From: Candidatus Thorarchaeota archaeon
GTDB taxonomy: Archaea > Asgardarchaeota > Thorarchaeia > Thorarchaeales > Thorarchaeaceae
Assembly: GCA_011365025.1 (NCBI GenBank)
Contig: RDOF01000071.1
Location: forward strand, 1 to 9,404
DNA: 9,404 bases
Direction of reading: 5' to 3'
How positions within the stretch are numbered: position 1 is the stretch's first letter; the number at the start of each line of letters is the position of its first letter. The position numbers and the translations under genes were made by a program. Below, piece after piece: positions 1 through 9,404 of this stretch. The notes below the pieces were generated by a model, which made no database searches, was not told the DNA's origin, and saw nothing but the letters and a program-made list of their open reading frames with translations.

Positions 1-816
1 TACCCTCTAAGAATTCGTGACTCAGATGGAATTAGAGGTGCATGGGATTATCGTCAGTCATATGAGGCAGTTTCAAGCCTTACTGCAGATGATTTCGACT
101 ACTGGATTTCAACGGCCACTGTGGAATCCATGTCATTCGATATCAGCTTCAACGTTGATATGGTCGAGTATGATGCCGCTGATCCAACAAAGTGGAACCA
201 CGCCGTTGCCTTCAAAGTGGACCAAATCTTTGGTCATTGGACTCTAAACGAGTTTGATAGCTCGGTTCTTGAGAACCGGAGTCTGGCTGTGAACTTCTTT
301 GGAATATTGGGAACTGCGACTAGAACTCAATACTCCGCGGATGGAGCTCCTGTGGGTGATACAAACGCTAACAGCGTTGAGGCGGACTATTACGAGTTCG
401 GAGCTGCCAATCAGCCCTTTGCCAATGTTACCATGGGTGGATTACCCTATTACTATGCAGGTGATGGGTTCACAGAAGAGCACATCTCGGGCTCATCTAC
501 AGCTCCGCTGGGTGCATTCAGCGTAATGTATCAATCTGCTTCTGGAATAACCGTTACCGATTGGCAAGTCGATGCGGCGATGCTCTTCATGACTGCCGGA
601 TATGAATACTGGAGTGGCGAAGAAGTTCGCTGTGATCCCGTGTTTGTTTCCTACAGCAGCGCATTCCAGAGACCAAGTGCGACAAACACCACCACAACCA
701 CCACAACAACCACAACCACAACAACCGGTGATGGTCAGACTGCTCTTTATATCCTCATTGGATCAGCTGTCGGAATCACGGTCTTGGTTCTGGTGCTTGC
801 TAGGCGACGAAACTAG
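1..816 (+). CDS. Surface protein with poly-Thr linker and C-terminal membrane anchor (5' partial)
   Basis: The frame is open from the first base, so the start lies upstream; the last 271 residues and a TAG stop are present. An internal GTG at 121 is in frame but is not a convincing start, because coding-like sequence continues before it. The visible ectodomain is rich in aromatic, Asp, Ser and Thr residues and contains several Asn-X-Ser/Thr sequons, which is typical of exported archaeal proteins. It is followed by 13 consecutive Thr codons (688-726), a short Gly/Asp spacer, a hydrophobic segment of about 20 residues (ALYILIGSAVGITVLVLVLA) and the basic end RRRN. This order of ectodomain, O-glycosylatable stalk, transmembrane helix and cytoplasmic arginines indicates a cell-surface protein anchored at its C-terminus. 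I do not recognise the ectodomain family. The convergent neighbour ends 70 bases downstream. Confidence 0.85.
   Translation, partial: YPLRIRDSDGIRGAWDYRQSYEAVSSLTADDFDYWISTATVESMSFDISFNVDMVEYDAADPTKWNHAVAFKVDQIFGHWTLNEFDSSVLENRSLAVNFFGILGTATRTQYSADGAPVGDTNANSVEADYYEFGAANQPFANVTMGGLPYYYAGDGFTEEHISGSSTAPLGAFSVMYQSASGITVTDWQVDAAMLFMTAGYEYWSGEEVRCDPVFVSYSSAFQRPSATNTTTTTTTTTTTTTGDGQTALYILIGSAVGITVLVLVLARRRN
688..726 (+). repeat. ACC/ACA codon repeat encoding 13 threonines
   Basis: Thirteen Thr codons, mixed ACC and ACA only, form a low-complexity tract just before the membrane anchor of the surface protein. The mixture argues against a pure slippage artefact. It is likely a stalk or O-glycosylation linker. 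Confidence 0.9.
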
Positions 817-827
817 TCGAGTGGAAT

Positions 828-878
828 CTCGGGCCGAGCTTGATTACTCTGGTCCGAGAACTCCCTCTTTTTCTTTCC
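828..878 (+). terminator. Probable transcription terminator of the surface-protein gene
   Basis: After the stop codon at 814-816 there is an inverted repeat CTCGG-G-CCGAG (828-838), then a pyrimidine tract with five consecutive T residues (about 866-878, TCTTTTTCTTTCC). Archaeal RNA polymerase terminates at T-rich tracts on the coding strand. The tract is purine-rich on the minus strand, so it would serve only the plus-strand gene and not the converging operon. Confidence 0.4.
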
Positions 879-886
879 ACAGCGAT

Positions 887-1558
887 CTACGGTGAATCCA
901 GCGCATCAAGGATTTCCTTAGGAAGCATGTCTCTGACGGTAGAGGGCTGGGTCAGATAGCTGTTGTCATGTGATGACACACGAACCCACCCATCCCTAGA
1001 GTACTCGTATGCGGCACAGGAGGCATAACCCATTGAAAGCCAGGTGTCAACCTCCGGTGCTCCTCCCATTACAAGCGTGTCAATTAGAACCGCTATCATC
1101 GGGTGCGTGACAATCGCTATACCCACATTTTTGTGCCTTCCAACTAGCCGACTCATGTAGGATGAGATTCTCTCTCTCGCAATCATTAGGGACTCCCCAT
1201 TATCAGGCACCCATTCCGGATCACGCCAAAGAGATGGAAGTATCTTCGTCATGTCTTCCGTTGAAGGTTCTCTCTTGCCCAGTTTAACGTTGACTAGGTC
1301 TTCAATTGATTCAAGGCTAACTTCGAATTCGATTTCGAGCTCCTTTCCGGTTGCTATGGCGGCATCCGCCGGCGATGAGCAAATTGAAAAAACCCCGCTG
1401 GCAACACGAGAATGAGCGAGTTCGAAGGCTTGAGTTTTCCCATTCTCTGTAAGCCTACCCTTATCTTCATAGCTACTTTCTGCATGTGTCATGACATATA
1501 CCATGGTTCTTGGTGATAGTTTTCTGTCAATGTCGCGTTCCTGAACCAAGTCAAACAT
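887..1558 (-). CDS. Histidine phosphatase superfamily protein lacking both phosphate-pocket arginines
   Basis: This is a 223-residue phosphoglycerate-mutase-like (histidine phosphatase superfamily) protein. Family landmarks appear in order: VYVMTHAES (residues 18-26, normally xRHGE), LTENGKTQA (about 36-44), SICSSPADAA (about 58-67, normally SSPxxRA), GES (121-123) with a downstream Arg128, and VTHP with the second His152. His25, the expected phospho-accepting His, Glu122 (candidate acid/base) and His152 are kept. The Arg before the catalytic His is Thr24 and the Arg of SSPxxRA is Ala66, so the phosphate pocket is disrupted. It may therefore be a pseudo-phosphatase or act on a different group. 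The ATG at 1558 is preferred; an in-frame GTG at 1567 would add three residues. No signal peptide is visible, so it is probably cytoplasmic. It is the last gene of the minus-strand cluster, with a 79-base gap to the gene before it. Confidence 0.82.
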   Translation of the reverse strand: MFDLVQERDIDRKLSPRTMVYVMTHAESSYEDKGRLTENGKTQAFELAHSRVASGVFSICSSPADAAIATGKELEIEFEVSLESIEDLVNVKLGKREPSTEDMTKILPSLWRDPEWVPDNGESLMIARERISSYMSRLVGRHKNVGIAIVTHPMIAVLIDTLVMGGAPEVDTWLSMGYASCAAYEYSRDGWVRVSSHDNSYLTQPSTVRDMLPKEILDALDSP

Positions 1559-1592
1559 GCTTACCACTTGCTCACGTATTTCCCGTATACCT

Positions 1593-1600
1593 TGTTAAAA
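1593..1600 (-). promoter_or_regulatory. Possible internal TATA box for the phosphatase-like gene
   Basis: On the minus strand the gap between the two genes contains TTTTAACA, about 35-42 bases upstream of the ATG at 1558. That would place transcription initiation near 1570 and give a very short leader. No strong ribosome-binding site is seen (only GTGAG 12 bases before the ATG), which fits a near-leaderless transcript. The assignment is weak, and read-through from the upstream genes is equally possible. Confidence 0.22.
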
Positions 1601-1637
1601 GTCACTATTACACACCGAAGAGCTGTATTCCCATCAT

Positions 1638-2600
1638 CTAGTCTAGTCTTCGAAGCGTTTCGTAGGAGCCATACCCACCTTTTCTACCATTCAGTTCGAA
1701 TTCACCAAATGATTGAACGAGTGCAGACTTCCTCCCCTTTTCGTCGATGAAAGGCACCGGAACTATTCGCCCTGGCTTGGCAATTAGCTCATAGATTCTA
1801 TCCTCTGCATCCAGAATTTCCAATTTGGTTTTAGAGGGATAAATGCCATCGGCTCTTAGCTCATGACTTCTGAGCTGAATGTCCATGATTGGGATGTTTG
1901 CCCCATCACGAAATATGAATCCCCCAGGACCAATCCTTCCTCTATTGTCAAATACCGCAGCCGGATTTATTGCGAGTTGCTGGTCAAACCAAACCACGAA
2001 ATAGAACCAGTTGTCGATTGCCGTCCATTCTCGAATGCCGTGTGTATGATCTCGCTGACCCATTGCATTCCTGATATCGTACTCCAAATCACCCAGACGG
2101 ACATTCCCATTAATCACCGCAATTTGCTCCCAATGCATGTCCCCAGTCTTCTTGCCAAGTTCAAGAGCCTCAGGAGTCATGTGTTCGCTGTATTCGTACG
2201 TGTTGCTTATTTGGTGAAATTCTAGGTTCATTGATCCATCGACTAGGTCTTCTATTAGTCCAGGATTCGTTCTCACCTCTGGCAGGACTTCTGGATCCCT
2301 CACCACAACCACCGGTCCTTCGAACTGATACCTCCAATTTCCATCAGCTATGCATTGATGCTGAACGCCTTGGACTCTCAGATTCCTTGGATATTCTTGA
2401 CCGTTATCCGTAGCATGAAAGGCGGCAGCTCTGCCATCAGGTAAGAAGATGAAAAGAAAGGTCATCCCTTCAGGCTTGTTTGGCTTGAATCCAACCCTAT
2501 TCATTAATCCAAAGTTCTGATTCTTGTCAAAGAAGACAAAGTAATATGATTCATTCCACTCCAGGTTGCTTGACCTGGGTTTGTGTGTCAAAGGTTCCAT
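1638..2600 (-). CDS. DUF7065/DUF7064-type (lipocalin-like, AttH/CrtC-related) protein
   Basis: This 320-residue soluble protein resembles the DUF7065-DUF7064 family by motif. WNESYYFVFFD (15-25), followed by an RVGFKPNKPEG segment (35-45) and an FLPDGR strand (52-57), matches the N-terminal domain. HWEQ (156-159), GQRDHTHGIREW (181-192, usually RDHSWGxRDW) and a C-terminal GGYGSYE (308-314) match the second domain. These families are thought to be beta-barrels related to AttH and hydroxyneurosporene synthase; no member's reaction can be assigned here. There is no signal peptide or transmembrane segment. Its ATG lies 6 bases after the stop of the phosphotransferase gene, and its ribosome-binding site GGGGAGG (2612-2618) lies inside the last codons of that gene, so the two are transcribed and translated together. 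This suggests it binds or modifies the same small molecule. The family call rests on remembered motifs, not a search. Confidence 0.72.
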   Translation of the reverse strand: MEPLTHKPRSSNLEWNESYYFVFFDKNQNFGLMNRVGFKPNKPEGMTFLFIFLPDGRAAAFHATDNGQEYPRNLRVQGVQHQCIADGNWRYQFEGPVVVVRDPEVLPEVRTNPGLIEDLVDGSMNLEFHQISNTYEYSEHMTPEALELGKKTGDMHWEQIAVINGNVRLGDLEYDIRNAMGQRDHTHGIREWTAIDNWFYFVVWFDQQLAINPAAVFDNRGRIGPGGFIFRDGANIPIMDIQLRSHELRADGIYPSKTKLEILDAEDRIYELIAKPGRIVPVPFIDEKGRKSALVQSFGEFELNGRKGGYGSYETLRRLD

Positions 2601-2606
2601 TCGATA

Positions 2607-5321
2607 TTATGCCTCCCCGTGATGAAAACGGACAGTCCCTTCTGACCCATTTATAGTGACATAGTCGCCCGTCTTGAGGGTTTGGCATACATTTCTTATG
2701 TTCGTCACTGCAGGTATTCCATACTCCCTTGAAACCACAGCACCATGTGAAAGAACGCCTCCAGTCTCGGTTATGAGTCCGCCAATCTTGGAAAACACTG
2801 GAGTCCATCCGGGGTCTGTTCTGGGAACAACAATAATCTCTCCGGATTTCACGTACGGAATCTCATGGATACTGGCAAGAACACGCACATTCCCACTTGC
2901 TTCTCCTTGGCTAGCTGGAATTCCCTTTAGTATCCCATCTTGGTCTGACACCGGCAATGGGTCATTGTACTCCCTCTCCCCCTGAATGAATTTTGGAGGT
3001 ACGGTATCCTCATATTTCTTGAACTCCATATAACGCTCCTCTGTGAGCTTCTTGTACAGCTCTCGGCCGGATTCATCAAAGTGGCCTTCCGCAATTCTTA
3101 GGATTTCTTTTCTATGAAGAAAGAAAACCCGTGAAGGGTCACTTAGAACATTCCTCTCTGTTAGTATTGCTCCAACTTTCAAGAAGAGCGCTCGATTTCT
3201 TGTAATCCATCTATCCAAATTGAATCTCTGATCTTCTCTAAAACAGAGGTATTTTCTGCTCATCCCCAATATGGCGGAAAGCAACCCCCATTTAATGAAA
3301 CCAAGGCTTTGCTTTGCAATCTTCGATTTCACCTCAAGTTCAGTTTTCTGCTGCAATTCTTGAACCTCATTAAATGTGGGAATAGAAGACCTCGACGCCT
3401 CCATCAAGGGCTTTAGAATGTCAAACACAAGACTTGGCTTCTCGCCCCAACGTGGATAATAGGGTTCGCGAGTATAGCCCCTTACTCCGTATTCCGCAGA
3501 AAACTTCTCAAACTCGGTAAGAAACTCGTTGGCTTCTGCTGTTCCAGCTTTCTTCATCGCTTCTAGCATTTGATTCGAATCTGTTTTTTCGATTATTCCC
3601 TTTACAACAGGCGATGCTCGCGCAAGGCTGGCCAGCGAATTAATCGCATCATTTGTTTCGGTCGTCTTGTGCCTTAGTCCAGAAATAAGAAGTGGAAAAC
3701 ACTGCGAGGCCTCTTGTTCGCTGAGAAATGTCTGAAGAAGGTAGTTTGTAATGAGGCTCATGCCGAGATTATGCACAGGAATTCCGTACCTAACCATTCT
3801 GAAATGTCGCATCATGACCTTGTCAAGTTCCTTCGCAAGCCTCAACAATTCGTTCAAGTCGCTTGATTCATCTAAGCTTTTGAGTTTGGAATCAAACTCC
3901 TGTAGGTAGGGTACGAAGACGTCGTCGGTCCACTCACGATATCTCTTGTCAGTATTTGTCATGCTTCCGTCGGAGTCGAAGAGCATGACACGAATCTCCG
4001 CCATAATTCGATTCTTTATTGCAAAGGGCAGGTTCCTCATTGTTTCTTTTCCATAGGGTCCATGTCCTTCAGGGAAGATGTTGAGAAGGTCCTCGGAGCG
4101 AATGAAAGTTGGCATCTCATTGACTACTTTGTTTTTTATGACCTCGAGGTTGAAGTAGACATGAGCCTGAAAGAGTTTCAGGAGTTCTTTTGGCATACCC
4201 TTGTAGCCCATGATATCGTTCAGTTCGATATTTACAATGTACGTAATTTGGTCACCAAGGAGGTCGTAGAAAAGGGGGGTTACATTGTCACACCAATAAT
4301 CATCAGCGTATCCTCTTGACCAGAGTATCTCTTTGCTGTCATCCTTCTTTTTTGCGGCAAGCGTTGTTATTGGTCTTGATTGGAGAATATGAATTGTCCC
4401 GCTCTGGTCTACTGCCCATTCTACATCCTGGGGTGACAAAAAAATCCCCTCTATTTCCCCACCTATTCTCGCCAGTTCAATGACCTCCTTGTCACTTAAT
4501 GAAGAGGCTTCAACCAGATCGGCAGAAACCTGTTTAACTACGACTCCGGAGGTCTTTCCAGCTGCATCAATCACGAGGTTCTTGGTCCCAATTTCCTTGC
4601 TTACTAATTCGTAGTTGCCTTTCGTCCCTTTGCGAACAACAAATCGGTCTGGGACTGCAGATCCGTTCACAACGGATTCACCAAGTCCGAAATTCGACTC
4701 TATCATGAGTTCTTCACCGGCGGGCGAGGTAGGGCTGCTAGTAAACATGACCCCTGCACTTCTGGCTGGAACCATTGATTGAACAAGAACCGCAAGATGC
4801 ACCTTCTCATGCGGAATGCTATTCGCATTGCGGTAAGCAATTGCCCGGTCAGTCCAAAGGGAGCTATAACACTTTTTGACCGATTCAAGAACGTCATCGG
4901 TTCCCTTCACATTGAGGAATGTTTCATATTGTCCTGCAAATGACGCCTCTGGCAAATCTTCAGCAGTACCCGATGAACGAACAGCAACAGGACCTGCCAT
5001 GCTGCCCTCATAGGTTTCTCTAAGCTCCTCCACGACCTTCCCAGGCAGTTTCATTCTTTCGAAAAGCGCTCTTATTCTCCGAGACGCCTCCTCTATAGAA
5101 ACTGGTTTGCTATAGTCGATTGATTCTAGAGCCAAACTAATTTTGCTGGAGATGGATTCGAACACAGAATCTCGATATGCATCGGTAGTAAGAACGAAAC
5201 CCTGTGGTACTCGAATTCCTTTTTCAATTAGCGTAGTTAGATTTCCGGCTTTTCCACCAACGGATGAAATGGCACCCTTATCAATTATCGATAGCTTCCT
5301 TATGTACGAGGACTGGCTCAT
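2607..5321 (-). CDS. Rifampicin-phosphotransferase-like PEP/pyruvate-utilising dikinase
   Basis: This 904-residue protein has the three-part plan of rifampicin phosphotransferase (Rph). Residues 1-325 form an ATP-grasp PPDK_N domain with GGKAGNL (Lys24), VAVRSSGTAEDLPEASFAGQ (Arg115), DVEW (Glu301) and LQSRP (Gln314, Arg316). Residues about 330-780 form a large, mostly helical central domain that begins WSRGYADDYWCDNVTPL. Residues about 798-904 are the swivelling phosphohistidine domain with TETGGVLSHGAVVSREYGIPAV, where His859 is the expected phospho-carrier. The PEP/pyruvate-binding TIM barrel of true PEP synthase and PPDK is absent. Rph enzymes split ATP to AMP and Pi and transfer the beta-phosphate through this His to a small molecule held by the central domain; the substrate here is unknown. 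The ATG at 5321 is chosen because GGGTG precedes it by 9 bases; a GTG at 5333 would add four residues. It is the first gene of the cluster and probably cytoplasmic. Confidence 0.88.
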   Translation of the reverse strand: MSQSSYIRKLSIIDKGAISSVGGKAGNLTTLIEKGIRVPQGFVLTTDAYRDSVFESISSKISLALESIDYSKPVSIEEASRRIRALFERMKLPGKVVEELRETYEGSMAGPVAVRSSGTAEDLPEASFAGQYETFLNVKGTDDVLESVKKCYSSLWTDRAIAYRNANSIPHEKVHLAVLVQSMVPARSAGVMFTSSPTSPAGEELMIESNFGLGESVVNGSAVPDRFVVRKGTKGNYELVSKEIGTKNLVIDAAGKTSGVVVKQVSADLVEASSLSDKEVIELARIGGEIEGIFLSPQDVEWAVDQSGTIHILQSRPITTLAAKKKDDSKEILWSRGYADDYWCDNVTPLFYDLLGDQITYIVNIELNDIMGYKGMPKELLKLFQAHVYFNLEVIKNKVVNEMPTFIRSEDLLNIFPEGHGPYGKETMRNLPFAIKNRIMAEIRVMLFDSDGSMTNTDKRYREWTDDVFVPYLQEFDSKLKSLDESSDLNELLRLAKELDKVMMRHFRMVRYGIPVHNLGMSLITNYLLQTFLSEQEASQCFPLLISGLRHKTTETNDAINSLASLARASPVVKGIIEKTDSNQMLEAMKKAGTAEANEFLTEFEKFSAEYGVRGYTREPYYPRWGEKPSLVFDILKPLMEASRSSIPTFNEVQELQQKTELEVKSKIAKQSLGFIKWGLLSAILGMSRKYLCFREDQRFNLDRWITRNRALFLKVGAILTERNVLSDPSRVFFLHRKEILRIAEGHFDESGRELYKKLTEERYMEFKKYEDTVPPKFIQGEREYNDPLPVSDQDGILKGIPASQGEASGNVRVLASIHEIPYVKSGEIIVVPRTDPGWTPVFSKIGGLITETGGVLSHGAVVSREYGIPAVTNIRNVCQTLKTGDYVTINGSEGTVRFHHGEA
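2612..2618 (-). promoter_or_regulatory. Ribosome-binding site embedded in the end of the upstream gene
   Basis: GGGGAGG on the minus strand overlaps the last codons (Gly-Glu-Ala) of the phosphotransferase and lies 11 bases before the ATG at 2600. It supports translational coupling and fixes the start of the DUF7065/7064-type gene. Confidence 0.6.
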
Positions 5322-5383
5322 GGATTTTCGCACCCAACCCTTCTTGAGTCCATATTGCTCTCCTACCGGAATTTCGACAGCTA

Positions 5384-5390
5384 CTTAAAT
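5384..5390 (-). promoter_or_regulatory. Candidate TATA box of the minus-strand operon
   Basis: On the minus strand, ATTTAAG lies about 63-69 bases upstream of the ATG at 5321. Initiation about 25 bases downstream would fall near 5360 and give a leader of roughly 40 bases that includes GGGTG before the ATG. No strong BRE precedes it. Confidence 0.35.
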
Positions 5391-5413
5391 CTAGTTCGAC
5401 ATCTTCCACTCTG

Positions 5414-5470
5414 CGGGTGAAACCCGAATCCATAGGAAGGGTGCGGCTTTGCTTTACCCTTCTGCGAAGC
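5414..5470. other. Cluster of inverted repeats in the divergent intergenic region
   Basis: Three pairings are visible. CGGGT (5414-5418) pairs with ACCCG (5422-5426) across a GAA loop. GAAGGGT (5436-5442) pairs with ACCCTTC (5456-5462). GCTTTGC (5446-5452) pairs with GCGAAGC (5464-5470), with one G-U in RNA. The last two are interleaved, so they either exclude each other or would form a strained pseudoknot. The cluster lies between the two divergent TATA-like elements, so it may be a DNA operator for both promoters or a separate small transcript. Confidence 0.4.
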
Positions 5471-5478
5471 ATTTTAAG
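5471..5478 (+). promoter_or_regulatory. Candidate TATA box of the zinc-finger gene
   Basis: ATTTTAAG preceded by GCGAAGC (BRE-like) lies 36 bases before the GTG at 5514, the same spacing as the TATA element of the PRC-barrel gene. Initiation near 5500 would leave the earlier GTG at 5478 outside the transcript. Confidence 0.4.
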
Positions 5479-5513
5479 TGAAGTTAGCTAATCCCTCCTT
5501 GAGGCCAACTAGA

Positions 5514-6203
5514 GTGCGAATACCAGTTTCCAAAATATCCCAGTTTGACGGAAAGACCTGCTTCATTTGCGGAAAATACCTGCTAAACAACACTGCTGAC
5601 GATCTTGCGTATCAGCATTTGCCCAATGGAAAATCCATTAAGGCCATGCCAGACAAGTACTACCTTTTCTCTTGTCCAAATTGCGGAAAGGTTGCGCACA
5701 AACGCTGCTGGTATGATATTGGAGAGCAAAAACAGAAGAAGGGGTGGTTCGGAAAGAAAGAATGGAAGCTCATTTGCCCCGGATGCAAACAACAGCTCTC
5801 ATCTACGCGATCTGAAAGATCAGATTGGAAAAAGGGCTACCAGATTCCCAGTCATCCTGATGACGAGCTATTGGAGTTGCATGTGCCTGACGTAATGGCC
5901 TGGAAGGCAGGTTCGATTTTTGGGAAGATTGGCAAGGCAATTGACAACTTCTTTCAAGCTGTTGGACTTGGTTCCTTGAGTGAATCTGAAACAAGTGCAA
6001 TATCAGTGGCCGCTGCGAAGATTGGAAAGACATTGAGAGATATCGCACAAAAGGTCTTTCGACTTGAAATACCTCCCGAGAGAAGGAAAGAGATCAAGGA
6101 ACTGAGATGTCAGAATTGCGGAGCGCCTTTGCCAATGCCTGAGCCGTATGTTGAAGCTGTCATCTGTGCCCATTGCAATACGGCTCACTTGCTTCCAACT
6201 TAG
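5514..6203 (+). CDS. C4HC3 zinc-finger plus C-terminal zinc-ribbon protein
   Basis: This is a 229-residue protein with two metal-binding regions. Near the N-terminus are CFIC (Cys16, Cys19), CPNC (Cys54, Cys57), His62, Cys65 and CPGC (Cys88, Cys91). The pattern C-x2-C, C-x2-C-x4-H-x2-C, C-x2-C is the C4HC3 order of PHD and RING-variant fingers. The C-terminus has CQNC (199-202) and CAHC (218-221), a classic zinc ribbon. Between them is an Ala/Ile/Lys-rich segment that is probably helical. The function is unknown; such fingers mediate protein or nucleic-acid binding, and RING-type ones can act as ubiquitin ligases, but no ubiquitin-system gene is in the window. The GTG at 5514 is chosen because GAGG (5501-5504) precedes it by 9 bases and a TATA-like element fits; an upstream GTG at 5478 would add 12 residues. 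The stop codon sits in an inverted repeat. Confidence 0.8.
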   Translation: MRIPVSKISQFDGKTCFICGKYLLNNTADDLAYQHLPNGKSIKAMPDKYYLFSCPNCGKVAHKRCWYDIGEQKQKKGWFGKKEWKLICPGCKQQLSSTRSERSDWKKGYQIPSHPDDELLELHVPDVMAWKAGSIFGKIGKAIDNFFQAVGLGSLSESETSAISVAAAKIGKTLRDIAQKVFRLEIPPERRKEIKELRCQNCGAPLPMPEPYVEAVICAHCNTAHLLPT

Positions 6204-6215
6204 CATGCCATGCTA
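6201..6215 (+). terminator. Inverted repeat overlapping the stop codon of the zinc-finger gene
   Basis: TAGCATGCCATGCTA is a perfect 7-base inverted repeat around a central C, and it begins with the TAG stop codon. As RNA it can form a stem of five pairs with a five-base loop. No T-run follows, so its role as a terminator is uncertain. Confidence 0.3.
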
Positions 6216-6245
6216 GCTGGAGTCCTCTGAAAAGACCCAAACAAT

Positions 6246-6254
6246 GTATATATG
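6246..6254 (+). promoter_or_regulatory. TATA box of the 100-residue protein gene
   Basis: GTATATATG, preceded by the A-rich CAAACAAT, is the strongest TATA-like element in the window. Initiation about 25 bases downstream would be near 6275. That favours the ATG at 6305, preceded by GGAGG at 6288-6292, over an in-frame TTG at 6269. Confidence 0.6.
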
Positions 6255-6304
6255 GTAAATGAACAAGGTTGAGCAAAACTCCCATCTGGAGGCTAAGAAT
6301 TCAA

Positions 6305-6607
6305 ATGCCATGGTATCTAGAGTTCAATGAGAAGGACTCACAATTTCACGAAACCACTAGAACCTCAAGCGATGACTCAATTCTGCTGGCTATCGATGAG
6401 GCTCAAAGGAAGTTGTTGATGACAGTTCCAACAAATGTTGGAATGATTGCAAGGAGAGCCGCCGAGCGGCAGGCTCGTGGGATCACTAAAACGGGTTTCC
6501 TAATGAGTGACGGCGGGCGATACGGAAGGGACCATGAGTTGGAAGTATTGGGCGAGGGCGGTCAGCTTCCCGAAAGGCTTCGCCAGAGTCCTCGTGAAGT
6601 CTACTAG
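6305..6607 (+). CDS. Small basic protein of unknown function (100 aa)
   Basis: This is a 100-residue protein with no signal peptide, membrane segment or cysteine. The N-terminal third is acidic and Ser/Thr-rich. The centre has the core KLLMTVPTNVGMI (36-48), running into a strongly basic, probably helical segment RRAAERQARGITKTG (50-64), then GGRYGRDHELEVL (70-82) and a short Arg-rich tail. The alternating Arg/Ala/Gln pattern suggests a nucleic-acid- or protein-binding helix, which is inference only. I do not recognise a named family. The start is set by GGAGG 12 bases upstream and by the TATA box; a TTG at 6269 would add 12 residues but lies before the expected transcription start. It has its own promoter and a strong hairpin after its stop, so it is probably transcribed alone. 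Confidence 0.7.
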   Translation: MPWYLEFNEKDSQFHETTRTSSDDSILLAIDEAQRKLLMTVPTNVGMIARRAAERQARGITKTGFLMSDGGRYGRDHELEVLGEGGQLPERLRQSPREVY

Positions 6608-6628
6608 TTGCATTTTGCATAGATGCAG

Positions 6629-6654
6629 GAGCCCCTCGGGGCTCTGGCAATTTT
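6629..6654 (+). terminator. GC-rich hairpin terminator
   Basis: GAGCCCC (6629-6635) pairs with GGGGCTC (6638-6644) around TC, followed within a few bases by TTTT (6651-6654) and further T-rich sequence. It starts 22 bases after the stop of the 100-residue gene. A shorter inverted repeat, TGCAT-AG-ATGCA (6616-6627), directly precedes it. Confidence 0.6.
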
Positions 6655-6744
6655 AATTTCAAACTAGGTTTTGATTTCTGCCAATTAATGCAAAACCTTT
6701 TCTACTACTGTCTGGTTGACGGACTAATTCTCTTGAGAGAAATA

Positions 6745-6752
6745 CTTATTAA
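6745..6752 (+). promoter_or_regulatory. Candidate TATA box of the PRC-barrel gene
   Basis: CTTATTAA preceded by GAGAGAAATA (purine-rich, BRE-like) lies 36 bases before the ATG at 6788. The expected transcription start near 6773-6777 leaves a leader of about 12 bases holding the AGGTG ribosome-binding site. Confidence 0.5.
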
Positions 6753-6774
6753 CTATTAACAATCGTTAACAATT
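6749..6774 (+). repeat. TTAAC/TTAACAAT direct repeats at the PRC-barrel promoter
   Basis: TTAAC occurs at 6749-6753, 6756-6760 and 6766-6770; the last two extend to an exact TTAACAAT (6756-6763 and 6766-6773). The 10-base spacing puts them on one face of the helix, between the TATA element and the expected transcription start. This is a typical position for a repressor-binding site. Confidence 0.45.
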
Positions 6775-6776
6775 GT

Positions 6777-6781
6777 AGGTG
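6777..6781 (+). promoter_or_regulatory. Ribosome-binding site deciding the PRC-barrel start
   Basis: AGGTG lies 6 bases before the ATG at 6788. An in-frame GTG at 6779 is part of this site, so it is unlikely to be the true start. Confidence 0.6.
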
Positions 6782-6787
6782 TCGTCT

Positions 6788-7465
6788 ATGTTCAAATGCT
6801 GCAATATGAAATACAGCGATGTCAAGAACAAAGATGTCGTTGACGCTCATGGAACCAAAATCGGTAATGTGTCGGATTTCATCTTTCACTTGGAAGGGAA
6901 TAGACTTGTCCCGAAGTCAATTGTTCTTGCTGGAGGAAGAATAGAGGAATTTCTTGAATCAATCGGAGCACGACCTGATAATGACCCTGTCTTCACAACT
7001 GATGTAATGGATGTGGTTGAGGATGACAGGATCGTCCTTTGTGCAGACAAAGAGAAGCTAAAGACAACCCTTGACCCCGATGTCATGGTAGAGGGCGACA
7101 TTAAGCTCTCGAAATTATCAAAGATGAAAGTCATTGATACAGACGGCTTTAAGGTGGGCAACGTCATTGATGTTTGGTTTGATACTAGCAATGAGATCTA
7201 TTTGGTCTTGGGCGGTGGATTCTTCGAGGAGGCACTGGAACGCCTTCATGCGCAACCCAATATCGATTTGCTTGCGTCCTTCAAAGACATTGAGTCAATC
7301 ACAGATAGTGGGATTAAACTAAAGTGGACCAAATTCCAATTGGAATCTAACTGTGAAAAGGAGTACGACCGGCTCAAACGCGAACTCTCATCTATAGACA
7401 AGCCTGGCGACTATAGATACCCACAACTTCGTCTTGGAAAAGGACCAAGTCGAGGAATGGCTTAG
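6788..7465 (+). CDS. Tandem PRC-barrel domain protein
   Basis: This 225-residue soluble protein is made of two PRC-barrel-like modules. The first (about 9-92) has DVVDAHGTKIGNVSDFIF and the second (about 107-185) has MKVIDTDGFKVGNVIDVWF, both matching the G-x-x-V-G-x-V-x-D core of PRC barrels. The similarity extends past the core: LAGGRIEEFLESIGARPDND in the first aligns with LGGGFFEEALERLHAQPNID in the second, so the whole module was duplicated. The C-terminal 40 residues are charged (EKEYDRLKREL) and end in a basic, Gly/Arg-rich tail. PRC barrels occur in RNA processing (RimM), photosynthetic reaction centres and archaeal division proteins (CdvA, CdpB); the role here is unknown. An MFKCCN N-terminus with two adjacent Cys precedes the first module. 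The gene has its own promoter, repeats and hairpin. Confidence 0.85.
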   Translation: MFKCCNMKYSDVKNKDVVDAHGTKIGNVSDFIFHLEGNRLVPKSIVLAGGRIEEFLESIGARPDNDPVFTTDVMDVVEDDRIVLCADKEKLKTTLDPDVMVEGDIKLSKLSKMKVIDTDGFKVGNVIDVWFDTSNEIYLVLGGGFFEEALERLHAQPNIDLLASFKDIESITDSGIKLKWTKFQLESNCEKEYDRLKRELSSIDKPGDYRYPQLRLGKGPSRGMA

Positions 7466-7479
7466 TCAAGGAATTGACT
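7464..7479 (+). terminator. Hairpin overlapping the stop codon of the PRC-barrel gene
   Basis: AGTCAA (7464-7469) pairs perfectly with TTGACT (7474-7479) across GGAA and begins inside the TAG stop (7463-7465). The following sequence is pyrimidine-rich (CTCATCATCATTTCATTCC) but lacks a long T-run. Confidence 0.3.
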
Positions 7480-7489
7480 GGTCTCTCAT

Positions 7490-7584
7490 CATCATTTCAT
7501 TCCTGCATTTGTGAGCGGAGCTGTCAGCGGTATCCTTCGGTTGCTTAGCTCCACGATACCTGCACCATTCATTCCTGAATTGTG
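7490..7584 (+). repeat. Imperfect direct repeat flanking a hairpin
   Basis: Two copies of a roughly 22-24-base element share an exact 10-mer TTCATTCCTG (7496-7505 and 7568-7577), with similar flanks (CATCAT before and CATTTGTG after, versus CACCAT before and AATTGTG after). They are 72 bases apart and bracket the GGAGCT/AGCTCC hairpin. Confidence 0.45.
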
Positions 7585-7602
7585 TCTCCAGCCTCAGACA
7601 CA
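7581..7602. other. Perfect 7-bp inverted repeat
   Basis: TGTGTCT (7581-7587) and AGACACA (7596-7602) pair across an eight-base loop. No T-run follows on either strand. It may be an operator or part of a small RNA. Confidence 0.35.
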
Positions 7603-7781
7603 GCTATGCCTCCCAACTTGCTGCATCCGTATCCGGCTTGTCGATTCAGATCCTGGAAAAGCTGCTTGCATGAATGCTTGAGTTGCATCTTGGATTTTCG
7701 GGGCAAAGATTATCTTCTTAGAAGCTAGGGGAAACACAGGCAAAAGTGAATGGTCTAAATTCCCAATGCCCGCATATTCGT

Positions 7782-7786
7782 GGAGG
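7782..7786 (+). promoter_or_regulatory. Ribosome-binding site of the NosD-like gene
   Basis: GGAGG lies 10 bases before a TTG (7797) and 13 bases before a GTG (7800), both directly in front of the basic n-region of the signal peptide. The two starts differ by one residue. Confidence 0.45.
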
Positions 7787-7799
7787 AGACTACCAATTG

Positions 7800-9404
7800 G
7801 TGCAAAAAAGGACTTTGACCTTACTCGTTCTATTCGTGCTAATCTCAATGGCTTCTATCCGAATTATTGGTCTTGGAGCTTCACTGGAAGCAACTCCATT
7901 GAGCGCCCTAAATGAACCAACTTTGGCATACGAAAGCCATGATCCCATTGACATCTACGGAGATAGTGGACTCTCGGCGCAGGCTGATGATGAGGACTGG
8001 CTCGGCGATGGCACAAGTGGAAATCCCTTCCTCATCCAGGGTTATAGCATCATTTCTGCTGCCACGTGCATCAGCATATTCTCAACTACTCTACACTTTG
8101 TCATTCAGGATTGCTACCTCTCCCCCACCGAGGAATGGTTCGACTCACTCCAACTAATCGGGGTAAGTAATGGGCGGGTAAATTCATGCCACATAGTTGA
8201 TGAGAATTATGCAGTTACAATTGGAGGCTGCACCTCGGTCACAATGGAGAACACACTTGTCGAAGGTGCAATAAATGCCCTGTCGCTTTTCGATTCCTAT
8301 TCTTGCACCTTTGTTAACAATACTTTTCAGGATGGTGGTCTCATGATGTGGACTCTGGATGAGGCTGAAACGGATAATGTGTTTGTTGACAATACTGCAA
8401 GGGGAAAGCCACTTGGATACTTTAAGTCTCAATCAAGCATGGTTATTAACGGAAGCCTGTATGGGCAGGTGGTTCTTGCCTCTTGTGAAGACATAACCGT
8501 AAGCAATGCGAATATCTTTGGTGTTCCAACTGGATTCTTCACATCTTATTGCACAAACTGCATGCTCGTGGATTCAATTGTTGATGGTTGCCAATTTGGT
8601 GCGCACATCATGTTTTCGGATGAAACCAAGTTGATGAACAACATCATCAGAAACAGCCTGCACATGGGAATCCTAGTAAACACCTCAGATTTTGTGGAAA
8701 TTAGCGATAATGAGATTTACAGCAATTGGATTGGCATCGAGATATCTGAATATGACATGTTCGCCATCACCAACAATACCGTCAGAGGCGGATGGTGTGG
8801 CATGTCCATCTACATGGGTATGGCGGGTGATGTCATCTACAACAGAGTCTTTGATAACACGGGATATGGAATCTGCCTTGGCTACGGGTGCTGGAACGCT
8901 TCTCTATATGGCAATTATCTGGGTTGGAACGACATCGCGAATGGGTATGATGGCGAGGTCGGAAATATGTGGGACGATATAGCAAGCCATGGGAATTACT
9001 GGGATGATTATATTGGGTCGGGTACCTACTTGGTTCCAGGTCCTGCAGGAGCTGTCGACCATTTCCCCGAGATTCTTTTCGACTATACTCCGCCAATTGT
9101 CACATCTCCCGGTGATTTGGTCATTGAATCAGGGTCAACTGGAAGTATCCTAAATTGGCAGGCGCATGACTACTTCCCGTCTGTGTACGGAGTGGTGAGG
9201 AATGATGTACCCTATGCAGGCGGCTTCTGGAATTCCTCAGCAGAGGTCGTAAGTATAAACCTTGATGAATTAGAGGTGGGTGTGCATAACTTCACTGTCA
9301 TCTTCATGGATATGAGCTTCCTGTCGGCCACAGACACGGTATTTGTGACGGTACTTCCTGATGAGTCTCCTCCAATTATCTCCTCTCCAAATGACATCAT
9401 CTAT
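7800..9404 (+). CDS. Secreted NosD-like parallel beta-helix protein with Ig/cadherin-like repeats (3' partial)
   Basis: The frame is open from GTG 7800 (or TTG 7797) to the window edge, giving 535 residues without a stop. Residues 2-30 form a signal peptide (QKR n-region, TLTLLVLFVLISMASI core). DWLGDGTSGNPFLIQGY (66-82) is the entry motif of NosD-family helices. About 85-395 consists of coils of roughly 22-25 residues rich in N-N-x-I/V patterns (for example FVNNTF, NNIIRN, ITNNTV). The helix closes with GNYWDDYIGSGTY (398-410) and GAVDHFP, which is characteristic of archaeal NosD-like proteins. An Ig/cadherin-like domain follows (about 431-521, PPIVTSPGDLVIESGSTG to TVFVTVLP), and a second begins at 524 (PPIISSPNDIIY). 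It is probably a cell-surface protein binding glycans or other ligands; copper-related NosD function is not implied. Twelve cysteines lie in the helix region, which is unusual. A membrane anchor is expected beyond the edge. Confidence 0.88.
   Translation, partial: MQKRTLTLLVLFVLISMASIRIIGLGASLEATPLSALNEPTLAYESHDPIDIYGDSGLSAQADDEDWLGDGTSGNPFLIQGYSIISAATCISIFSTTLHFVIQDCYLSPTEEWFDSLQLIGVSNGRVNSCHIVDENYAVTIGGCTSVTMENTLVEGAINALSLFDSYSCTFVNNTFQDGGLMMWTLDEAETDNVFVDNTARGKPLGYFKSQSSMVINGSLYGQVVLASCEDITVSNANIFGVPTGFFTSYCTNCMLVDSIVDGCQFGAHIMFSDETKLMNNIIRNSLHMGILVNTSDFVEISDNEIYSNWIGIEISEYDMFAITNNTVRGGWCGMSIYMGMAGDVIYNRVFDNTGYGICLGYGCWNASLYGNYLGWNDIANGYDGEVGNMWDDIASHGNYWDDYIGSGTYLVPGPAGAVDHFPEILFDYTPPIVTSPGDLVIESGSTGSILNWQAHDYFPSVYGVVRNDVPYAGGFWNSSAEVVSINLDELEVGVHNFTVIFMDMSFLSATDTVFVTVLPDESPPIISSPNDIIY

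Follow-up and report, generated by a model that had tools for sequence, protein, structure and literature searches.

Introduction

The closest described counterpart of the locus reported here is the dehydration system of Sterolibacterium, in which, according to the available text of PMC8449060 and PMC7411048, a kinase phosphorylates a tertiary C25 alcohol and the phosphate is then eliminated to leave an alkene. The same excerpts place the kinase step near equilibrium (Keq 0.34), because a tertiary phosphoester is about as energy-rich as adenosine triphosphate (ATP). In 2021 only one other ATP-dependent dehydration system was named in the accessible part of PMC8449060. In this work we analyzed a stretch of 9,404 nucleotides from a Candidatus Thorarchaeota archaeon (contig RDOF01000071.1, positions 1 to 9,404; hereafter the window), where the gene for an Rph-like dikinase is followed on the minus strand by a gene for a DUF7065/DUF7064-type beta-barrel protein (the barrel) and by a histidine-phosphatase-like gene (HISP). 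Our results make it probable that the dikinase and the barrel constitute an ATP-dependent dehydratase tandem in which the barrel would act as a phosphate-eliminating C-O lyase.

As in the 25-hydroxysteroid kinase/25-phosphosteroid lyase system, the window pair is proposed to phosphorylate an alcohol before a lyase eliminates the phosphate. It differs from Sterolibacterium denitrificans in that the kinase there belongs to the phosphotransferase family, whereas the window encodes an Rph-like dikinase; moreover, the available text of PMC8449060 states that no lyase candidate is located near the kinase gene, while the two window genes are coupled. This likeness does not imply a steroid substrate for the window pair. 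Judged from sequence, the novelty of the pair would be best read as a known kinase-lyase dehydration in which an Rph-like dikinase has replaced the kinase.

Other described systems share parts of this arrangement. Homologues of RPH in bacteria and archaea form, in the available portion of PMC4844700, a family of small-molecule dikinases whose substrates are largely unexplored. HpeHI, CreHI and PpsAB are two-component dikinases that phosphorylate small phenolic molecules, as described in part of PMC12167813. In the Rv3168-Rv3169 operon a putative APH-type kinase is encoded with the namesake of the Rv3169 family (PMC5340868 and PMC3691515, in the text available). This operon also places a kinase beside a barrel-family namesake, fitting a barrel-plus-phosphate-donor pattern, but its kinase is of a different fold, and the window barrel scores 24.9 bits with the Rv3169 family model NF053593, for which the curated cut-off is 150.

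Conservation of the dikinase-barrel pair

The initial annotation had described three successive minus-strand open reading frames and assigned their families, and both points were confirmed (Table 1); the Pfam scan agrees on PPDK_N and PEP-utilizers for the first, DUF7064 and DUF7065 for the second and His_Phos_1 for the third. The coupling claimed for the first two genes was also corroborated, as the stop codon of the dikinase gene (2607-2609) lies 6 bases from the ATG of the barrel gene (2598-2600) and a likely ribosome-binding site, GGGGAGG, is found inside the dikinase gene.

The two genes occur together well beyond the window. Among 148 Asgard genomes, one even draw from the phylum, DUF7064 is present in 43. 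Profiles for the dikinase middle domain and for the barrel, run separately, gave strong matches (above 400 and above 100 bits, respectively) in the same 33 genomes; both profiles had been built from loci first located via the barrel, and weaker matches, left out of this count, appeared in nine more genomes for the middle domain and in 19 for the barrel. In one genome with weaker matches (G056), the gene of an 808-residue dikinase and that of a divergent barrel share 4 bases (L084). The dikinase gene is directly upstream of the barrel gene, on the same strand and within 130 bases, in 26 of 32 loci with a window-type barrel, and 23 of these show a gap within 20 bases or an overlap; gene starts were taken as the first possible start codon, so that small gaps and overlaps are approximate. 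As for the remaining loci, L053 has the reversed order, the genes are 1.2-3.6 kilobases (kb) apart in L066, L070, L072 and L074, and the contig of L068 ends too early to show a dikinase beside the barrel. In genome G066 the two genes lie on different contigs, and the barrel match of G093 is fragmentary, lying where a contig ends. A dikinase part is present in the fetched stretch of 52 of the 57 DUF7064 loci initially drawn, the expectation for ATP-grasp matches alone being about 0.02 per 14 kb. Six longer dikinases from these genomes (832-974 amino acids; L120-L125) had no barrel in the fetched stretch.

The closest relatives of the barrel in the genome collection come from six loci, all of Thorarchaeota. 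In all six the dikinase and barrel genes are adjacent (50-54% identity for the dikinase and 54-57% for the barrel), and the order dikinase, barrel, HISP and ZN (the gene of a zinc protein, divergent) is kept, with a PRC-barrel gene beyond; a gene labelled NTERM is found in five, and the sixth, L003, ends before it. Elsewhere the surroundings of the pair vary by group, with ZN in one and genes for the exosome, SBDS and L37ae in another, which speaks against simple inherited synteny. Together, these data support the dikinase and the barrel as a conserved unit of two genes, whose role is most likely to phosphorylate and process a single small molecule. Of the dedicated pathway of three genes proposed in the initial annotation, these two are supported and HISP is not; likewise, the conserved adjacency that it suggested looking for in related genomes holds for dikinase and barrel, while all three genes are neighbours in 10 genomes.

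We also tried to read a substrate from the gene neighbours and abandoned this route, as neither the exosome, SBDS and L37ae genes nor ZN yield a pathway. A CAAX-protease-like (Rce1) gene stands beside the barrel gene in L070, L074 and L068, and in the first two it lies between dikinase and barrel.

The dikinase

The dikinase matches PPDK_N (E 2.5e-94) and PEP-utilizers (E 1.1e-23), and it shares with RPH the order of ATP-grasp, middle and C-terminal swivel domains in one chain. No Pfam match was obtained for the middle domain (residues 340-795) up to E 1, and from residue 563 onward this domain aligns with the equivalent region of RPH. All 27 aligned sequences keep K28, R119, E305, Q318, R320 and H863, and the same holds for R699, E700 and R703; the ATP-grasp positions among them were chosen after the active sites of dikinases. 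R119 aligns with Arg117 of RPH-Lm. The histidine and the Arg-Glu couple are residues shared with RPH, and the available part of PMC4844700 reports that transfer to the acceptor depends critically on Arg666 and Glu667 of RPH-Lm and that His825 carries the phosphate. The window dikinase differs from RPH in having Arg703 as the counterpart of Lys670, in pairing with a lyase-type barrel, and in falling far under the cut-off of the rifamycin-inactivating phosphotransferase equivalog NF041857 (413.7 bits, cut-off 999).

The best solved relatives of the dikinase are chains of 5hv2, 5hv1 and 5fbs (E 3e-96 to 5e-96). Their PDB molecule name is phosphoenolpyruvate synthase, a name also borne by the two best NCBIfam models, and it could be argued that the dikinase is such an enzyme of central metabolism, paired with the barrel incidentally. 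However, the available text of PMC12167813 refers to 5FBT and 5HV1 as RPH, and RPH homologues are often misannotated as phosphoenolpyruvate synthases according to part of PMC4844700. In addition, none of the 25 listed NCBIfam rows reaches its cut-off (405.8 bits against 739.75 for the PEP_synth equivalog TIGR01418), the swivel domain is C-terminal rather than central as in phosphoenolpyruvate synthase, and a pyruvate-binding C-terminal domain was not found in the Pfam scan. PPDK_N matches average 4.7 per genome in the 43 DUF7064-positive genomes, which implies that other dikinases are present. We consider a phosphoenolpyruvate synthase highly improbable, and the identity of Rph-like dikinase given in the initial annotation is upheld by the Pfam domains and the RPH-type solved relatives.

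The barrel

The barrel exceeds the gathering scores of DUF7064 (46.7 bits, cut-off 24.7) and DUF7065 (32.1 bits, cut-off 27). The names DUF7064 and DUF7065 were not found in the literature searched, a result that says nothing about papers beyond that search. Across the family, a signature of the form RD-x-[ST]-x-G-x-R is present in 78 of 79 Asgard barrels tested, and R183, D184, G188 and R190 do not vary in an alignment of 25 rows whose columns average 27% identity. The barrel has the fold of the 25-phosphosteroid lyase (PDB 9fzn, 9g2i and 9g4c), which was the sole solved relative found by the barrel-family profile; the lyase aligns with profile A4 at E 2.3e-16 and carries the R-D motif, this link being seen with profiles and not with single sequences. 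We assume that the three lyase structures, whose titles name no organism, are of the enzyme of S. denitrificans. D184 of the barrel aligns with an Asp that reads Asn in 9g4c.

These observations bear on how the barrel functions. The initial annotation viewed it as a putative ligand-binding protein; in such a reading it would be a non-catalytic binder or carrier of the hydrophobic substrate or product of the dikinase. The gene pairing would suit a carrier as well as an enzyme, and several proteins of the same fold bind hydrophobic ligands, with ligand complexes named in structure titles. The near-universal signature, the four invariant residues and the lyase as the only solved relative retrieved by the family profile argue against a carrier, which we regard as unlikely; the family call was correct, and a phosphate-eliminating lyase accounts better for fold, profile match and R-D motif. 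Somewhat less likely still is an enzyme acting on the phosphorylated product by hydration, cyclization or cycloaddition, since the family profile retrieved none of the enzymes catalyzing such reactions at E values up to 1, and a phosphate leaving group would best explain a phosphotransferase as partner.

Proposed mechanism

We infer the following chemistry from what was observed, namely how the genes pair, which catalytic positions are conserved, and to which fold and family the barrel belongs. The ATP-grasp domain would hand a phosphate of ATP to His863 on the swivel domain. The swivel would then move with its phosphate to the middle domain, and there Arg699 and Glu700 may help its transfer to the hydroxyl of a small molecule. 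The barrel would eliminate the phosphate from this phosphoester to give an alkene, with catalysis likely to depend on D184. The probable acceptor is a hydrophobic molecule, perhaps an isoprenoid, that bears a tertiary alcohol. On energetic grounds of our own, a dikinase that spends both anhydrides of ATP, leaving adenosine monophosphate and phosphate, would render the phosphorylation of a tertiary alcohol effectively irreversible, and pairing with a lyase would thus pull dehydration forward.

Several observations weigh against this proposal. The co-occurrence of the two genes in 33 of 33 genomes (hypergeometric 1e-33) ignores shared ancestry, and the neighbourhood holds nothing that names the substrate. 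Five of the 57 DUF7064 loci lack a dikinase part in the fetched stretch (L042, L050, L068, L073 and L077); among these, L042 and L068 are contigs of less than 5 kb, L042, L050 and L073 have a C2 gene (see below) beside the barrel, and L077 has neither feature. Used on its own, the Thor-type profile A1 matches the lyase at no better than E 0.1; in PDB searches with single sequences, the window barrel gave no match up to E 10, and neither a plasmid barrel nor a split-type barrel retrieved the lyase at E values up to 1. The putative AttH 2ich tied on Z score (25.8, 9% identity), and the fold of the barrel is also that of pericyclases and kievitone hydratase, so that fold alone does not give the reaction. 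Finally, H156 and E158 are invariant in Thor-type barrels but are Arg and Ala in the lyase, as read from the printed alignment.

If correct, the proposal would tie the barrel and dikinase families to a rare chemistry and would offer a testable function both for a barrel family listed as unknown in Pfam and for dikinases lacking a known substrate.

Split modules and plasmid barrels

A dispersed version of the dikinase was found in stretches around short ATP-grasp genes, 24 of which, new relative to the loci above, were picked among the PPDK_N matches listed in the 43 DUF7064-positive genomes. In 21 of these 24 fetched loci, among the matches listed, a four-gene split module is present (L096-L108 and L110-L117, without L109), consisting of an ATP-grasp gene, a gene for a free swivel protein of about 120 amino acids, a gene that we call C2 (about 385 amino acids) and a gene for a divergent DUF7064-type barrel. 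The ATP-grasp and free swivel genes are divergent from C2 and the barrel gene, as in L101:6475-10111. Regarding the exceptions, L109 holds part of a fused gene at the end of a contig, L118 reaches a contig end, and L119 has an ATP-grasp gene without the rest of the module. The swivel histidine is kept in 33 of 33 free swivel proteins. C2 relatives are 71-100% identical to the query among the matches listed (120 of 312). Two C2 proteins scanned gave no Pfam match, NCBIfam gave none, the fold search returned no confident fold, and no profile similarity between C2 and the fused middle domain was detectable.

Like HpeHI, CreHI and PpsAB, the Asgard split form has a separate ATP-grasp protein; in HpeHI, however, the swivel and substrate domains are on one polypeptide, as is typical of HpeHI/PpsAB-type enzymes, whereas the swivel of the Asgard split form is free. 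In the dispersed form the ATP-grasp protein would charge this free phosphohistidine carrier, which would deliver phosphate to C2 as a separate acceptor, and a lyase barrel would then expel that phosphate. That dikinase-driven dehydration is a general chemistry of Asgard archaea, in fused-pair and dispersed forms, is a tentative idea. If true, it would imply an ATP-driven phosphorelay with a free carrier, laid out like the sugar phosphotransferase system and serving dehydration.

Two C2 genes lie beside a single ATP-grasp gene in L038:2890-6564, which also has two free swivel genes, and in L045:1078-4326, and these loci look as if one donor served two acceptors. Genes of the 2-hydroxyglutaryl-CoA-dehydratase D type adjoin the split module in L038, L039, L040, L052 and L062. 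Among 47 loci with divergent barrels or C2, 4Fe-4S proteins are near 19-20 and 2-hydroxyglutaryl-CoA-dehydratase-type genes near 5, which as a hint to the substrate is suggestive only. A gene of the histone-deacetylase family also recurs near the split module, in 13 of these 47 loci (L080, L087, L102 and others).

In bacteria, plasmid records found solely by barrel similarity showed another type of kinase near the barrel. An APH-type kinase match lies within 7 kb of nine of nine DUF7064 matches in seven records, with 0.5 expected; the 7 kb limit was chosen once the distances (0.6-7.0 kb) were known, and one of the nine DUF7064 matches is below the family cut-off. This count covers 7 of 10 records, leaving out the second Pseudonocardia, the second Cupriavidus and the Mycobacterium avium records. 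In three annotated plasmid records, acyl-CoA dehydrogenases are near the barrel in all three and AMP-binding proteins in two. With three phosphate donors for one barrel family (fused dikinase, split dikinase and APH kinase), genomes would become readable for this reaction.

The histidine-phosphatase-like gene

HISP matches His_Phos_1 with 54.3 bits (cut-off 21.7), and its description as degenerate was borne out: the arginine of the RHG motif is gone in 12 of 12 aligned rows, the window included, and the histidine in nine, the window being among the three that keep it. The RHG motif of branch-1 histidine phosphatases, which has both Arg and His, is incomplete in HISP. It is more weakly coupled than dikinase and barrel, with a Met at 1558, 79 bases past the barrel stop, that does not vary among the 12 aligned rows and was called as the start in 8 of 11 relatives.

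The initial annotation placed HISP in one pathway with the pair. In such a pathway it might serve as a phosphate-ester hydrolase or a regulator. The three genes are indeed same-strand neighbours in the window and, when we checked whether this ever recurs, in 10 of the 32 pair genomes (of 33) covered by the HISP search. However, HISP matches above 200 bits occur in 14 of these 32 genomes, with weak matches only in two more, leaving 18 without a match of that strength. HISP adjoins the barrel gene in 10 of the 14 genomes; in L051 it is located beyond ZN, and in the three others HISP and the pair are on different contigs. Its steady neighbour is NTERM instead, next to which it is found in 12 of 12 loci with enough contig, whether the pair is present or not (L003 and L044 end too early); it stands between NTERM and ZN in L126 and L128, and beside NTERM on the short contig of L127. 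Given this distribution, its persistence beside NTERM when the pair is elsewhere and the loss of catalytic residues, we rejected the three-gene pathway, which we hold to be very unlikely, and judged that HISP is not part of the module.

Other genes of the window

Table 1. Positions of the features discussed, in window coordinates unless a locus is named.
Feature	Position	Strand	Size or residues	Basis or remark
Dikinase gene	2607-5333	minus	908 amino acids	Open reading frame list; Pfam PPDK_N, PEP-utilizers
ATP-grasp domain (PPDK_N)	4326-5267	minus	residues 23-336	Pfam and alignment
Middle, presumed acceptor-substrate domain	2949-4316	minus	residues 340-795	Alignment with RPH from residue 563 on
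Arg699-Glu700	3234-3239	minus		Counterpart of RPH-Lm Arg666-Glu667; invariant 27/27
C-terminal swivel (phosphohistidine) domain	2637-2849	minus		Pfam PEP-utilizers
His863	2745-2747	minus		Counterpart of RPH-Lm His825; invariant 27/27
Likely ribosome-binding site GGGGAGG	2612-2618	minus		Within end of dikinase gene, 11 bases ahead of barrel ATG
Barrel gene	1638-2600	minus	320 amino acids	Open reading frame list; Pfam DUF7065, DUF7064
Signature RDHTHGIR	2031-2054	minus	residues 183-190 of barrel	Family alignments
HISP gene	887-1567	minus	226 amino acids	Open reading frame list; Pfam His_Phos_1
C2 gene (example)	L101:8028-9185			
Surface-type protein, C-terminal part	1-816			
Zinc-binding protein	5478-6203			
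PRC-barrel protein	6779-7465			Pfam
NosD-like protein	7746-9404			Pfam

The surface-type protein at the start of the window, with a Thr run and a hydrophobic end, is a constant neighbour of the HISP gene, and its open reading frame extends to about 1200 amino acids in relatives. On the other side, the zinc-binding protein is encoded divergently from the dikinase and contains several Cys pairs; the Pfam scan gave no match over cut-off for it, and it is 57-66% identical where present in relatives. Further on, one protein shows two PRC-barrel matches, and the last gene encodes a NosD-like beta-helix protein that continues past the window edge.

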